From Sphaerisporangium siamense (GTDB lineage: Bacteria > Actinomycetota > Actinomycetes > Streptosporangiales > Streptosporangiaceae): a stretch of 64,000 bases of DNA. The notes beneath the pieces are model-generated. The model did not search any database and was not told the origin of the DNA. It saw nothing but the letters and a program-made list of their open reading frames with translations. The stretch covers positions 8,370,001 to 8,434,000 of the forward strand of contig NZ_JACHND010000001.1 in the NCBI RefSeq assembly GCF_014205275.1. The letters run 5' to 3'. The translations under genes and the position numbers were made by a program. This document shows positions 10,458 to 40,485 of this stretch, piece by piece; position 1 is the first letter of the stretch; each line of letters starts with the position of its first letter.

Positions 10458-12041
10458 CTAGGCGTCGCGGTCCCAGGCGTAGGGGTCCACGTAGATGACG
10501 TGGCCGCCGCGGTCGTCCGACTCGTCGACGATGTCACGGCGCTGGGTCCTGCCGGCGGCGGGTGTGGTGGTGGCGCCGTGCTCGTCGGTCCAGTCGGCGC
10601 GGATGGCCGGGATGGGCGCGGTGTCGGCCTCGGTGGCGTCCATCCAGTGGCCGGACGGCTCGGGCGCGGCCGGTCTGACGCGGCTCGCCACGCTCGCCAC
10701 CTTGGCGATCACCTCGCCCGCCTTGCGGACGGGCACGGGTTCAAGGCCGCGGTGGTAGGTCAGCCACCAGTTGGTCAGCCCGGCCGAGATGCCGGACGCC
10801 ACGCCGACCTCCAGCGTGGCCGACAGCGCGACCTCCCAGGCGGACGGCCCGACGGCGGACAGGCGCGCACCGCCGAGCGGGCCGCCGGCGAGGGCCGCGA
10901 GCAGCCCCGCCGACAGGCCCGTGGCCAGACCGCAGGCGAACCCCCACAACGGGGCCGACTCCAGCTGGGGGGTCGGGGCGATGCGCGCCATGACGACCCC
11001 GGCGACCGCGCCCGCGAGGAACGGCACCGCGAGCACACTCATCGTCCACGGGGAGGTGACCCCGGAGCCGGGGAGCGCGCCGAGGACCGGCAGGGCGGGC
11101 ACGTCGCCGAGCTGCACGCCCGTGGGCGCGACCAGGGTGCCCGTGCCGAGCGCGAACCCCGGGCCGCTGAGGTAGGCCATGCCCCAGATGACGAAGTTGA
11201 ACAGGTAGAGCACCTGCACCAGCAGCAGGAGCAGGCCGCCGACGAAGCCCGGCGCCAGCAGGGACGACAGCCGCTGGACCTCGCCGAAGTTGAGGACTAC
11301 CGCCGCCAGCGCCAGCACGAGCCCGGCGGCCAGCATCGTGGACAGGGCGACGGCCGTGCCGGCCACCACCGACCGCGCGCGCACGGGGAGCAGCCGCAGC
11401 ATCGACCGCCATGGCCCGATGGTGCGCGCGGTGGCCAGCGACCCGGCCAGGAAGGCCAGCAGGAAGTGGCTGAGCAGCGCCTCGCCGACGAACGGCTGGG
11501 TCACGTTGTTGTGGGCCACCAGAGCGATCACGCCCGCCAGCAGCGCGTACGGCGCGGCCAGTGAGATGCCCGCCTGGGCGATGAGCAGGAGCTGCGCGCG
11601 GCGGCGCGCGTTGGACAGGTCCTTGGCGCTGCCCTTGGGCAGACGGGCCGGCAGGCGCAGCCGCAGGTCGGCGTCGCGGGCCATCCACAGGGCGGCGCGG
11701 TAGAGCAGGACCGCGGGCAGGAGCATCAGGCCGAGCGGGAGCAGGCCGATCCGTCCGCCGGGGATCGCGAAGCCGGCGTGGTGCGCGGCGAGCCAGACCT
11801 GGCAGGCGGCGCGGAAGACGCCGGGGAGTCCCTGCCCGAAGGCGCCGCGCGGGGCGGCGATCCACCCGATGAGGGTGAGGGTGGTCAGAACGGCGAGGCC
11901 GGCGCCGAGGGTGGAGGCGGCGGCGAGCATGCCGGAGACGGGCAACGGGCGGCGCGTCTCGTCGTCGTCGCCCCCGCTCCCGGGGATACGCCCGAGTACG
12001 GCGCGGGGAGCCGCCCGGAGCTGGTCGAAGAGGGCCGTCAC
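10458..12041 (-). CDS. DUF6350 polytopic membrane protein
   Basis: From GTG 12041 the product has 527 residues starting MTALFDQLRAAPRAV. It contains about ten to eleven hydrophobic helices, for example LGAGLAVLTTLTLIGWIAAP, LLPLGLMLLPAVLLYRAALW and FVGGLLLLLVQVLYLFNFVI, with a conserved-looking GMAYLSGPGFALGTGT loop. The hydrophilic acidic tail ends in YVDPYAWDRDA. DUF6350 proteins sit between purN and sucD in many actinobacteria, exactly as here; their role is unknown and transport is only a guess. The frame continues open to 12413, but those extra residues are basic, low in hydrophobicity and overlap the intergenic region, so I exclude them. The ribosome-binding signal at 12041 is weak. Confidence 0.8.
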   Translation of the reverse strand: MTALFDQLRAAPRAVLGRIPGSGGDDDETRRPLPVSGMLAAASTLGAGLAVLTTLTLIGWIAAPRGAFGQGLPGVFRAACQVWLAAHHAGFAIPGGRIGLLPLGLMLLPAVLLYRAALWMARDADLRLRLPARLPKGSAKDLSNARRRAQLLLIAQAGISLAAPYALLAGVIALVAHNNVTQPFVGEALLSHFLLAFLAGSLATARTIGPWRSMLRLLPVRARSVVAGTAVALSTMLAAGLVLALAAVVLNFGEVQRLSSLLAPGFVGGLLLLLVQVLYLFNFVIWGMAYLSGPGFALGTGTLVAPTGVQLGDVPALPVLGALPGSGVTSPWTMSVLAVPFLAGAVAGVVMARIAPTPQLESAPLWGFACGLATGLSAGLLAALAGGPLGGARLSAVGPSAWEVALSATLEVGVASGISAGLTNWWLTYHRGLEPVPVRKAGEVIAKVASVASRVRPAAPEPSGHWMDATEADTAPIPAIRADWTDEHGATTTPAAGRTQRRDIVDESDDRGGHVIYVDPYAWDRDA

Positions 12042-12460
12042 AGTAGTCGATGCTCTCAGGCCGGACGGTGCGGGCGAACGTAGGCACCCCGCGTGTCGCC
12101 CCGTTTGTCCCCTGGACGCCCGGTGCCCGCGTGCTCTTGGCCCCCCGATGGCCAGGCGTCCCGGCACCGAGATATCCGTTCGAGGCGAAATGTCGATGTT
12201 TTTTCGCGGGAGTCGCGGTCTTTTCCTCGGGGACCAGATACGGGCGGATGTCCGCATCCTGCAACGTGCCGTTTCCCGGTCGGGCGCGGGGGCAGCCGGG
12301 GCGCGGCTGACCTGGGACGACACGTGATTGCGCGCCGGTGCGCGACAGTCCTGGGACGGCTGACAGGAAACGGTCACGGCCGTGCAACTTGCTGCCGCGC
12401 CCTCGTCTGTCACGGGGCAGGTGAATCCCGCAAAGTTGTGAGTGAGAGAACGGACGTACC
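12042..12460. other. Intergenic region upstream of DUF6350 and GTTWD-peptide genes
   Basis: This 419-bp divergent spacer should hold both promoters. I see no convincing -35/-10 pair. The word CCTGGGAC, part of the DNA word for the TWD core repeated in the next gene, occurs at 12310-12317 and again at 12349-12356, where plus-strand translation would give LTWDD and QSWDG just before stops. These could be degraded repeats or chance. A T-rich run lies near 12197. Confidence 0.5.
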
Positions 12461-12790
12461 GTGAAGGAAGCGAGAAAGAGAATGTCGAGCATCACCGCCC
12501 ACCCGAACTCCGGTCTGGTCTCCCGGATTTCCACCGCGGTCGTCTCGGCCGCCGTCGCGCTCGGAATCGCCGCCGCCGGGTACACCGCCCTGAACTCCGG
12601 CACCACCTGGGACTCCCGCGCGCACGTCGCGGCCCTCGGCACCACCTGGGACACCCCGCCCGCGGACGACGACGGCACCACCTGGGACGTCACCCCGGCC
12701 GGGACGACCTGGGACAGCGCGCCCGCCCACGGCTCCGGCACCACCTGGGACTCCGCGCCCGCGCGCACCAACGGCACGACCTGGGACTGA
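12461..12790 (+). CDS. Small secreted or membrane-anchored protein with six GTTWD repeats
   Basis: The frame encodes 109 residues from GTG 12461, or 102 from ATG 12482, which follows a GAAAGAGA purine run. The N-terminal half has basic residues (KEARKR, SRIS) and a hydrophobic stretch at about residues 21-42 (AVVSAAVALGIAAAGYTA) that looks like a Sec signal or single anchor. Everything after it is six copies of GTTWD (residues 47, 60, 72, 81, 93 and 105 onward) joined by 4-8 residue Pro/Ala/Ser/Asp-rich linkers, and the protein stops right after the last copy. There is no Cys and the repeat part is net acidic. I know no family with this repeat. Tandem Trp-Asp units suggest an extracellular binding or adhesive peptide, or a multi-core precursor, but no modifying enzyme is encoded nearby. 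A second small ORF follows after 15 bp. Confidence 0.7.
   Translation: MKEARKRMSSITAHPNSGLVSRISTAVVSAAVALGIAAAGYTALNSGTTWDSRAHVAALGTTWDTPPADDDGTTWDVTPAGTTWDSAPAHGSGTTWDSAPARTNGTTWD
12599..12787 (+). repeat. Six irregularly spaced 15-bp GTTWD-coding repeats
   Basis: The copies start at 12599, 12638, 12674, 12701, 12737 and 12773. Four are the identical word GGCACCACCTGGGAC and two differ only at codon third positions. Spacing is 39, 36, 27, 36 and 36 bp, so the unit is close to 36 bp (12 residues) with one shorter linker. Copies share protein sequence more strictly than the linkers between them, which argues for selection on the pentapeptide. Confidence 0.9.
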
Positions 12791-12805
12791 GAAAAGCCGG
12801 GCGAA

Positions 12806-13066
12806 ATGCAGGCCGAGATCAGACTGCACCGCACGAATCCGCCGGGCACCGGCAATTCACAGATGGACGCGATAAGAATACTGGGCCTGCTGCCGCGGGA
12901 ATGGACGCGGCATCTCAGTCAGGCCGACGGGGACATGGTCCTCCGCGTGGACACGGCGGACGAGACGACCCCAGCGCAGATCCTGGCCGCCGCAGCCGCC
13001 GCTCTCGCCGACCCGGCCGTCGCCCACTGGCGATTGAGCGCCTGTGAGCCCCTCGCCTCCCTCTGA
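12806..13066 (+). CDS. Small hypothetical protein paired with the GTTWD peptide
   Basis: An 86-residue frame begins 15 bp after the GTTWD gene and on the same strand, so the two are probably one transcript. The predicted shape is a helical first part (MDAIRILGLLPREWTRHLSQ), a short strand (DMVLRVDTADE), an Ala-rich helix (TPAQILAAAAAALADPAVAH) and a terminal strand (WRLSACEPL), suggesting a compact alpha/beta domain. No signal peptide or membrane helix is seen, so it is likely cytoplasmic. ATG 12863 is an alternative start that would remove 19 residues; neither start has a strong Shine-Dalgarno. I do not recognise a family. A hairpin terminator lies 149 bp downstream. Confidence 0.55.
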   Translation: MQAEIRLHRTNPPGTGNSQMDAIRILGLLPREWTRHLSQADGDMVLRVDTADETTPAQILAAAAAALADPAVAHWRLSACEPLASL

Positions 13067-13214
13067 GTCTCTAGAAGCACTCCCCGCCTCCAGGAGCCCG
13101 TCCGCCGGCCCCGCGGGCCGGCGAACCTCCCCGCCTCGGACTTCCCTGCCAGGCACGTCCCCGCACCCCCTGCCGTCCCGGTGCGCCGTCGCGGCCGATC
13201 GGCTGCGGGAACGC

Positions 13215-13245
13215 GGAAGCGCCCGGCGGGTGGCCGGGCGCTTCC
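13215..13245. terminator. Hairpin terminator between the small-ORF unit and sucD
   Basis: A perfect 13-bp stem (13215-13227 with 13233-13245) and a 5-nt loop sit 50 bp past the sucD stop and 149 bp past the rightward small gene. With no T-run on either side it can serve both convergent units. Confidence 0.75.
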
Positions 13246-13295
13246 GAGGTGGTCACCGGGTGGACGGTGAGCCGGTGCGGCGTTCCTGAGCGCGT

Positions 13296-14182
<887 letters not shown>

Positions 14183-39357: not shown

Positions 39358-40104
39358 ATGGGCCCCGCACAGCGAGCTCGGCGGATGATGCGACGGTTCG
39401 TCCCGATCGCCGCGGCGACCGCCCTGATGGCGGCGGCGCTGCCCGCCTCGGCCGAGGAGCCCGCGTCCGCGCGTGCCAAGGGCGTCGACTGCGCCCGGGT
39501 GAAGTGCATCGCGCTGACCTTCGACGACGGCCCCGGCCCCTACACCGCCAAGCTGCTGGACATCCTGCGCGCCCACCGCACCAAGGTCACGTTCTTCCTC
39601 ATCGGCGGGCGCGTCGAGAAGGACCCGAGGACGGCGCGCGCGATCGCGCGGCAGGGTCACCAGGTCGGCAACCACACCTACGACCACCCGCACCTCACCA
39701 CCCTGTTCGACGACGAGATCCGCGACGAGATCGCCCGCGCCCAGGACGCCATCCAGGCGGCCACCGGACGGCGGCCCGACATCCTGCGGCCCCCGTACGG
39801 CGACACCGACGCGCGGGTGGGCGCCATCGCCGCCGAGTTCGGCCTGTCGCAGATCGTGTGGAACGGCAGCTCGCGCGACTGGGAGCTCCAGAACGCCGTG
39901 GCGATCCGCGAGAAGGTGCTGGGCCTGGCCAAGCGCGACCGCGTGGTGCTGATGCACGACATCCAGCCCGCGACGGTCACGGCCATGCCGAAGATCCTCA
40001 CCGCGTTGGAGAAGAAGGGCTACCACGTGGTGACCGTCGAGAAGCTGCTGCGCGGCCGGCGGCTGAACGCCGGCGAGACCTTCCCCGTCGGCGGCTGGAA
40101 CTGA
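39358..40104 (+). CDS. Secreted polysaccharide deacetylase (NodB domain)
   Basis: The 248-residue protein has a Sec signal (RRFVPIAAATALMAAALPASA) and a carbohydrate esterase 4 domain with all motifs. TFDDGPGPYT gives the catalytic base and metal Asp, NHTYDHPHLT the two His ligands, RPPYGDTD the third motif, and LMHDIQP the catalytic His. These remove N-acetyl groups from peptidoglycan, chitin or related surface glycans. ATG 39358 follows GGAGGAGG; the in-frame start at 39280 would bury the signal peptide. It lies among envelope genes. Confidence 0.92.
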   Translation: MGPAQRARRMMRRFVPIAAATALMAAALPASAEEPASARAKGVDCARVKCIALTFDDGPGPYTAKLLDILRAHRTKVTFFLIGGRVEKDPRTARAIARQGHQVGNHTYDHPHLTTLFDDEIRDEIARAQDAIQAATGRRPDILRPPYGDTDARVGAIAAEFGLSQIVWNGSSRDWELQNAVAIREKVLGLAKRDRVVLMHDIQPATVTAMPKILTALEKKGYHVVTVEKLLRGRRLNAGETFPVGGWN

Positions 40105-40254
40105 CGATCGGCGGAATCGCTTGCGCCGCCGCCCCGCGCCGGTCTTAAGGTGGGACGAGGCCGCGGCCAGGCGCGACATCGCCTGGATTCCGGCGGCGTC
40201 TTCCCCGATCCGTCATGGCCGTTTCCCGGCCGTCACACGAGGAGACCACGAGCG

Positions 40255-40485
40255 ATGAGCGACGTACAGCAGAAGGCCGAGCTCTACGCCATGGACATCT
40301 CGGACGCGACCTGGCTGAGCGCCCCCGGGAGCACCTCCGAGGACCGTATCGAGATCGCCTACCTGCCCGGCGGCGCGGTCGCCATGCGCAACCCGTCCGA
40401 CCCCGCGGGCACCGTCCTGCGCTACACGGCCGCCGAGTGGAACGCCTTCGTCCTCGGCGTCCGCGACGGCGAGTTCGACGACTGA
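40255..40485 (+). CDS. DUF397 small protein
   Basis: The 76-residue protein contains the DUF397 pattern ATWLSAPGSTSEDRIEIAYLPGGAVAMRNPSDPAGTVLRYTAAEW (read here in parts: WLSAPGS, EIAYLPG, VAMRNPSDP, LRYTAAEWNAF). DUF397 proteins are abundant in morphologically complex actinomycetes and are usually paired with an XRE/BldB-associated regulator; no such helix-turn-helix gene is adjacent. ATG 40255 has GAGGAG ten bases upstream. The stop is 9 bp from the convergent acyltransferase stop. Confidence 0.88.
   Translation: MSDVQQKAELYAMDISDATWLSAPGSTSEDRIEIAYLPGGAVAMRNPSDPAGTVLRYTAAEWNAFVLGVRDGEFDD

Follow-up and report, generated by a model that had tools for sequence, protein, structure and literature searches.

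The window, the 64,000-nucleotide stretch of Sphaerisporangium siamense DNA analysed here, carries a small gene whose product contains six GTTWD pentapeptides and closes on the last of them, followed 15 bp after its stop codon by a second small open reading frame (Table 1). Both features had been reported in the initial annotation and were confirmed. The repeat frame spans 12461-12790 on the forward strand and encodes 109 aa when read from GTG 12461, but ATG 12482 is the more likely start because it lines up with the start of the orthologue in a sister species (genome G007, locus L031). A helix-like hydrophobic stretch is present ahead of the repeats as annotated, and its best 19-residue Kyte-Doolittle mean is 1.87. 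The linkers had been described as acidic and rich in Pro and Ala; the second part holds (14 of 33 residues), but the first does not, with D or E at only 3 of 33 residues. When the coding pattern of the pentapeptide, GGNACNACNTGGGAY, was searched in the window, all six matches lay inside the repeat gene, against a mean of 0.02 in shuffled sequences. In the whole genome the pattern matches nine times, namely these six and three more at 4.36-4.37 Mb, and the reversed control does not match. The view that no known family has this repeat is in line with our searches, as neither the peptide nor the partner matched a Pfam or NCBIfam model at its cut-off. The sole Pfam model listed for the peptide up to an E value of 10 was an unrelated one (E 3.4), the chaplin domain was not found, and the best match of the partner was DUF317 (E 0.0013, 19.1 bits versus a cut-off of 25). 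Rfam at gathering thresholds gave no match over 12100-13300.

Table 1. Features of the GTTWD-repeat locus in window coordinates
Feature	Position	Strand	Remark
Promoter box GACAGGAA-N14-GCAACTTGCTGCC	12362..12396	+	One mismatch to the family pattern GGCAGGAA-N14-GCARCTTGCTG
Leader, from box to likely start	12397..12481	+	Pieces resemble other leaders by eye (GCAAAGTTGTGAGTGAGAG here; GCAGAGTTG..TGCGAG in others)
GTTWD-repeat peptide gene	12482..12790	+	Probably 102 aa
Hydrophobic helix AVVSAAVALGIAAAGYTAL	12536..12592	+	Kyte-Doolittle
GTTWD unit 1	12599..12613	+	Coding-pattern match
GTTWD unit 2	12638..12652	+	Coding-pattern match
GTTWD unit 3	12674..12688	+	Coding-pattern match
GTTWD unit 4	12701..12715	+	Coding-pattern match
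GTTWD unit 5	12737..12751	+	Coding-pattern match
GTTWD unit 6, C-terminal	12773..12787	+	Coding-pattern match
Partner gene	12806..13066	+	86 aa; fold predicted to be ferredoxin-like; family with multiple copies in the genus

To compare repeats with linkers, we aligned the gene with its G007 orthologue. The 25 aligned GTTWD codons show no amino-acid change and two silent changes, whereas the 26 linker codons show six amino-acid changes and no silent one. The resulting values, from one species pair with few changes, are a dN of 0 and a dS of 0.13 for the core, and 0.119 and 0.091 for the linkers. The claim that the pentapeptide is kept while the linkers vary was thereby borne out, including in terms of dN/dS, and this one species pair supports selection on the GTTWD core.

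The gene belongs to a family that is spread over the genus. We found 59 sites at which GTTWD directly precedes a stop codon (GTTWD-stop) in 10 of 11 Sphaerisporangium genomes, with 1-13 dispersed or tandem sites in each and none in the reversed control, and the eleventh genome, S. album, has a GNTWP peptide in place of GTTWD. The copies are single, partnered or orphan, and four stretches each hold a cluster, with six copies in L085, five in L086 and four each in L087 and L088. Orphans are often peptides of 42 aa with three units and no hydrophobic helix, while the longer forms carry the helix. The short paralogues are the main form in several genomes, and both of the two that were tested lack a hydrophobic helix. 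In the taxonomic family, 7 of 120 genomes have GTTWD-stop, comprising three Sphaerisporangium and four single matches in other genera that we treated as chance, the reversed control having matched in two genomes. A reading of the many Trp codons as an attenuator was set aside because most orphan copies have no clear gene directly downstream. By eye, the sequence 3' of the GTTWD stops in L085 and L086 looks A/C-rich for high-GC genomes, and in L085 the copies resemble each other less after the stops than within the promoter-plus-ORF block.

One genome contains five dispersed copies (L096-L100) in which a block of about 420 bp, from promoter box to stop codon, is 96-99% identical. Outside the block the likeness was either weak, with two alignments continuing for some 200 bp (84-87% overall), or undetected. 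Such a pattern would be expected if the block were mainly a self-spreading DNA cassette and the peptide had little function. We consider this highly improbable, as the core codons are conserved with silent changes while the linkers change, different genera retain the unit at one conserved locus, and no terminal repeats or target duplications were seen by eye at the block edges.

Relatives of the partner were detected in 14 of 60 sampled genomes, including all 11 of Sphaerisporangium, and the anticipated co-occurrence of the 86-residue frame with the repeat therefore holds at the level of genomes. A model built from an alignment of 36 relatives (pLDDT 88) shows the β-α-β-β-α-β order of a ferredoxin-like fold. 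Its matches in the PDB, which include EF-1 beta (Z 9.6), ribosomal S6 and the ACT domain, are generic, and therefore no function could be deduced from them. An acyl-CoA carboxylase epsilon subunit had been considered because a partner homologue sits near a carboxyltransferase, but this assignment was set aside, with no Pfam support and a ferredoxin-like model instead. Many partner genes have a short frame ending in GTTWD or GITWD directly upstream, and several have none; conversely, many GTTWD copies have no partner-like frame behind them. In G007 the matching place has no start codon and some conserved residues are lost, so that the partner in the sister species looks decayed. Therefore peptide and partner are not an obligate pair at the window locus, and the idea of a fixed pair was given up. 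In loci L032, L035 and L044 of other genomes, partner genes adjoin a small gene that matches window 40255-40482 (DUF397-like by eye), and a GTTWD peptide is also present beside the partner in L032 and L035. In the window itself, the gene caller reported no pair of this kind at 40101-40255.

The short paralogues without a helix raise the question of where the peptide acts. GTTWD units might be linear motifs of an intracellular regulatory peptide that bind and titrate the LuxR-like, YcaO-like or partner protein and thus provide feedback on the regulon. The prevalence of helix-less forms agrees with this, as do two genomes in which a partner paralogue is fused in frame behind a GTTWD unit (L040 8871-9269, reverse strand; L106), and gene amplification would raise the dosage of such a peptide. 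On the other hand, helix-bearing forms stand at the conserved locus described below (five peptides of other genera were measured) and point to the membrane or the outside, and in the sister species the peptide persists while the partner seems to have been lost. We regard the intracellular peptide as improbable, although it is a serious rival.

The promoter box upstream of the gene, which the initial annotation did not list, is common to GTTWD/NTWP peptide genes and other members of a regulon, and a block starting GGCAGGAAG...GCARCTTGCTGCC lies upstream of the peptide genes. The exact core GCARCTTGCTGCC was found 100-480 bp upstream of 44 of the 59 GTTWD-stop genes. The core alone is unspecific: it matches 76 times in the genus and its reversed control 41 times, and 32 of the 76 matches have no GTTWD-stop nearby. 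When 20 further core matches were inspected, seven of those with the whole block lay ahead of GTTWD-unit peptides, two ahead of prephenate dehydrogenase genes and one ahead of an AHSA1/SRPBCC-type gene; one was close to a contig end, and the nine without the block look like chance. With up to two mismatches, the full box pattern matches in 59 of 120 family genomes, and the reversed control also matches in many. Because of these chance matches, only exact full boxes were counted, which gave 29 places in 14 of the 120 genomes. All 14 are among the 15 genomes that have an orthologue of a LuxR-like protein at E ≤ 3.1e-134 (Fisher p 2e-17, uncorrected for phylogeny; the LuxR threshold was set post hoc). 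At 1e-30, LuxR matches were found in 33 of 120 genomes, and the next value below the 3.1e-134 group, 4.4e-98, belongs to a genome that lacks an exact box. In this sample, the common box is restricted to genomes with the LuxR orthologue. Judged from this association, the LuxR-like regulator of the conserved locus is the most likely reader of the box.

The exact box precedes W-repeat peptides at 16 of the 29 places and partner genes at two, and two places have no assignment. The others are three tryptophan 2,3-dioxygenase genes (two by Pfam, one by eye), two DhbA-like dehydrogenase genes (one by model, one by eye), and one gene each for a LanB-like dehydratase, an AHSA1/SRPBCC-type protein, a carboxymuconolactone-decarboxylase-like protein (by eye) and an FAD/NAD protein. 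In genome G103, one-mismatch boxes precede a DAHP synthase gene and a benzoate-CoA-ligase-family gene, and the genome of the window has a two-mismatch box upstream of tryptophan dioxygenase (L310 6224-9015; G000:C1:4306000-4318000). The tryptophan dioxygenase gene of L310 is accompanied by a divergent AMP-ligase gene and by a gene that looks kynureninase-like by eye. In L131, a small secreted-looking frame on the reverse strand (923-1108) ends in RGNTPWG and lies close to an AHSA1/SRPBCC-type gene that carries the box.

Chaplins are multi-gene small secreted proteins of filamentous actinobacteria, and the signal-like helix, the Trp-bearing repeats and the multi-copy families would also suit loosely chaplin-like peptides with a structural or adhesive role on the surface of the spore or sporangium. 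Unlike chaplins, the peptides match no chaplin or other Pfam model above cut-off and have a core that changes with the clade of the LuxR-like regulator. Considering also that some forms lack the helix and that genes for tryptophan dioxygenase, prephenate dehydrogenase and DAHP synthase follow the box or its one-mismatch form, a surface role appears very unlikely.

The regulator, which is encoded at 7845-8855 of L040 and has a weak LuxR (GerE) match at its C-terminus, belongs to a conserved locus. We compared 17 loci that were picked for the LuxR-like gene or the partner, some of them cut by contig ends. All 17 contain the LuxR-like gene and 16 a carboxyltransferase; an alpha/beta hydrolase was counted in 14, a partner homologue and a PPTase in 13 each, and a YcaO-like gene in 11. 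Several genera encode a repeat peptide between the LuxR and carboxyltransferase genes, and TW-repeat peptides lie within or close to the LuxR locus in several genera. In two genomes (L040 7112-7240; L168 12137, reverse strand), a different small frame with a single internal AGTTWD or PGTTWD stands between the MarR genes of the locus, of which there are two. Modifying enzymes for the window gene had been expected elsewhere in the genome, and the YcaO-fold protein, a candidate for this role, is indeed encoded some 4 Mb from the gene, at a locus where the peptide gene carries this box as well. The YcaO-fold protein shares the LuxR locus with a precursor in several genera and does not adjoin the window gene. 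Among the called genes of L040, 10 of 20 were scanned with Pfam, and no exporter, peptidase, E1-like or TfuA partner and no ATP-grasp ligase was recognised among them. In reading the gene lists by eye, we noticed no TPR regulator.

Only one of the YcaO-like proteins scanned gave a Pfam YcaO match, which was sub-threshold (E 0.0025), and a genus paralogue found with the YcaO-like profile is a Pfam YcaO at 7.8e-28. Searching the PDB by sequence, both with the profile and with this Pfam-positive paralogue, yielded no matches. The structural model has a mean pLDDT of 60, with low confidence in the N-terminal part, and all 13 of its Foldseek matches at E ≤ 0.001 are YcaO or heterocyclase proteins. 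VIA-align placed McbD first (Z 15.1), and the Z score fell from 10.1 to 6.7 after 14 YcaO/heterocyclase entries. Eight of the 11 copies have a C-terminal PCPVP. In the alignment with the Pfam-positive YcaO, E is changed to A or other residues at some of the positions that we take to be Mg/ATP ligands, and the active site may therefore be dead. The YcaO-like gene is present in 11 of the 15 LuxR-positive family genomes and absent from four. Peptides with at least two units were found in all 11 genomes with the gene versus one of the four without it (p 0.009; in two of these four, G066 and G094, only selected stretches were read for peptides). The YcaO-like protein is linked to the repeat peptides, and the ferredoxin-like partner, judging from its model, could fill the role of an E1-like or TfuA partner.

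A LanB-like gene with the same box is a further candidate for a modifying enzyme, found in the window's genome and in its sister G007 (L313). In the window's genome it lies in L309 (G000:C1:4222000-4241500; box at 11987, reverse strand), together with two TldD/PmbA-type genes and, nearby, a second gene that has a LanB-type stretch. We rejected it as the general modifying enzyme, and with it a class I lanthipeptide of this LanB type, as a homologue occurs in four of 11 genus genomes versus GTTWD-stop in 10 of 11. None of the four genomes richest in GTTWD-stop genes has a homologue, and no box was seen near those of G006 and G009.

These enzymes bear on whether the gene encodes the precursor of a YcaO-type RiPP that serves as an antibiotic or another effector and not as a signal, the box merely co-regulating it with specialised metabolism. 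The fold nearest to McbD and the heterocyclases, the PCPVP terminus, the few or missing repeats where the YcaO-like gene is absent and the box-bearing LanB-like gene in two sister genomes agree with such a product. The partly replaced YcaO ligand positions, the patchy LanB distribution and the many precursor genes that stand alone, outside the conserved locus, do not. We consider the effector rather unlikely, but as a RiPP without a signalling role it is a serious rival.

When the cores of the family were compared, GTTWD was found in Sphaerisporangium, two Microbispora and Streptosporangium minutum (a name that was inferred). GNTWP or NTWP occurs in S. album, Planobispora, Planomonospora and Nonomuraea, and GNTWG in two Streptosporangium and two Microbispora. 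Streptosporangium sp. KLBMP 9127 has GTTWP, Planotetraspora has GNGWG, and one outlier ends in NGQWG. We mapped the residue after Trp on a tree of the LuxR-like proteins, which includes 26 of 33 extracted sequences, the seven without an assigned core (L190, L192, L169, L203, L206, L207 and L177) being omitted. The residue needs two changes, which is the minimum, against a mean of 12.2 for shuffled labels and seven changes for genus labels (three genera plus 'other'), with indirect assignment of the genus of L167 and of some of the core labels. The group with P has support of 100/99 and that with D has moderate support of 87/72, and the rows with G do not form one group. Sphaerisporangium, Streptosporangium and Microbispora each have more than one core type. 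The residue after Trp thus tracks the LuxR clade rather than the genus, and the peptide type therefore appears to travel with the regulator locus. This co-variation is a linkage that fits co-adaptation of core and regulator and is not proof of recognition; it could instead reflect shared descent of one locus.

Multi-core precursors of YcaO-dependent RiPPs are known from cyanobactins and thiovarsolins. The present family resembles them in having a small precursor with repeated cores in spacers and, at a linked locus, a YcaO-fold protein that is structurally nearest to McbD. It differs in the replaced glutamates at expected Mg/ATP-ligand positions, and in precursors encoded by up to 13 genes per genome; in addition, the scanned genes included no recognisable E1-like or TfuA partner. 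With the Gram-positive peptide pheromone systems of the RRNPP and Phr/PapR types it shares short peptides, a lineage-specific core, linkage to a regulator and a common promoter box. In contrast to those, the regulator is LuxR-like instead of being built of TPR repeats, and each precursor has several identical cores. Graspetides of the microviridin type likewise have multi-core precursors with Thr and Asp. The family departs from the proposed graspetide type in that lineages with other cores have Pro or Gly in place of the acidic residue, and no ATP-grasp ligase was recognised in the scanned part of L040. In the literature search no paper contained GNTWP, and the two with the letters GTTWD deal, judging by their titles, with unrelated subjects (insect receptors; Weissella safety). 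Combining LuxR, peptide signal, YcaO and RiPP with the family names gave, among the matches listed, no description of such peptides. Each single element has a known analogue, we found none for the combination, and the GTTWD repeat peptides are apparently an undescribed family.

Taken together, we tentatively propose, at somewhat less than an even chance, that the GTTWD gene encodes a multi-core precursor that is matured with the aid of the YcaO-like protein into a short, lineage-specific autoinducing signal for aromatic/tryptophan-linked specialised metabolism. The repeated G-[NT]-[TG]-W-[DPG] would be the functional core and the linkers would be spacers. The common box would switch on the precursor genes, its most likely reader being the LuxR-like regulator encoded at the conserved locus. 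The YcaO-fold protein of that locus would help to mature the cores, as a maturation enzyme or a peptide-binding protein, and the ferredoxin-like partner would perhaps present them. The short peptides, once released, would feed back as a lineage-specific signal on the aromatic/tryptophan-linked regulon. The reader of the box, the modification, the export and the signalling are steps that we infer, and the absence of an identified exporter, protease or receptor, the short forms without a helix and the possibly dead YcaO site speak against this proposal.

Streptosporangiaceae make many specialised metabolites. On a wider scale, the family may represent a new class of actinobacterial cell-cell signal, in which short peptides with Trp are cut from multi-copy, multi-core precursors, a diverged YcaO matures or senses them, a LuxR-type regulator takes part, and the residue after Trp defines the signalling group. 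Such a signal would induce specialised metabolism derived from aromatic amino acids across Streptosporangiaceae; we think this broader picture doubtful, if possible. According to one review, quorum sensing has been reported in only 25 of 342 actinobacterial genera (PMC4748050). If the product is a RiPP instead, the finding would be a multi-core family whose YcaO has diverged strongly and which has a ferredoxin-fold partner of an unusual kind. As a signal, a short, defined peptide that tracks its regulator, with the box lying before biosynthetic genes, could wake silent pathways.
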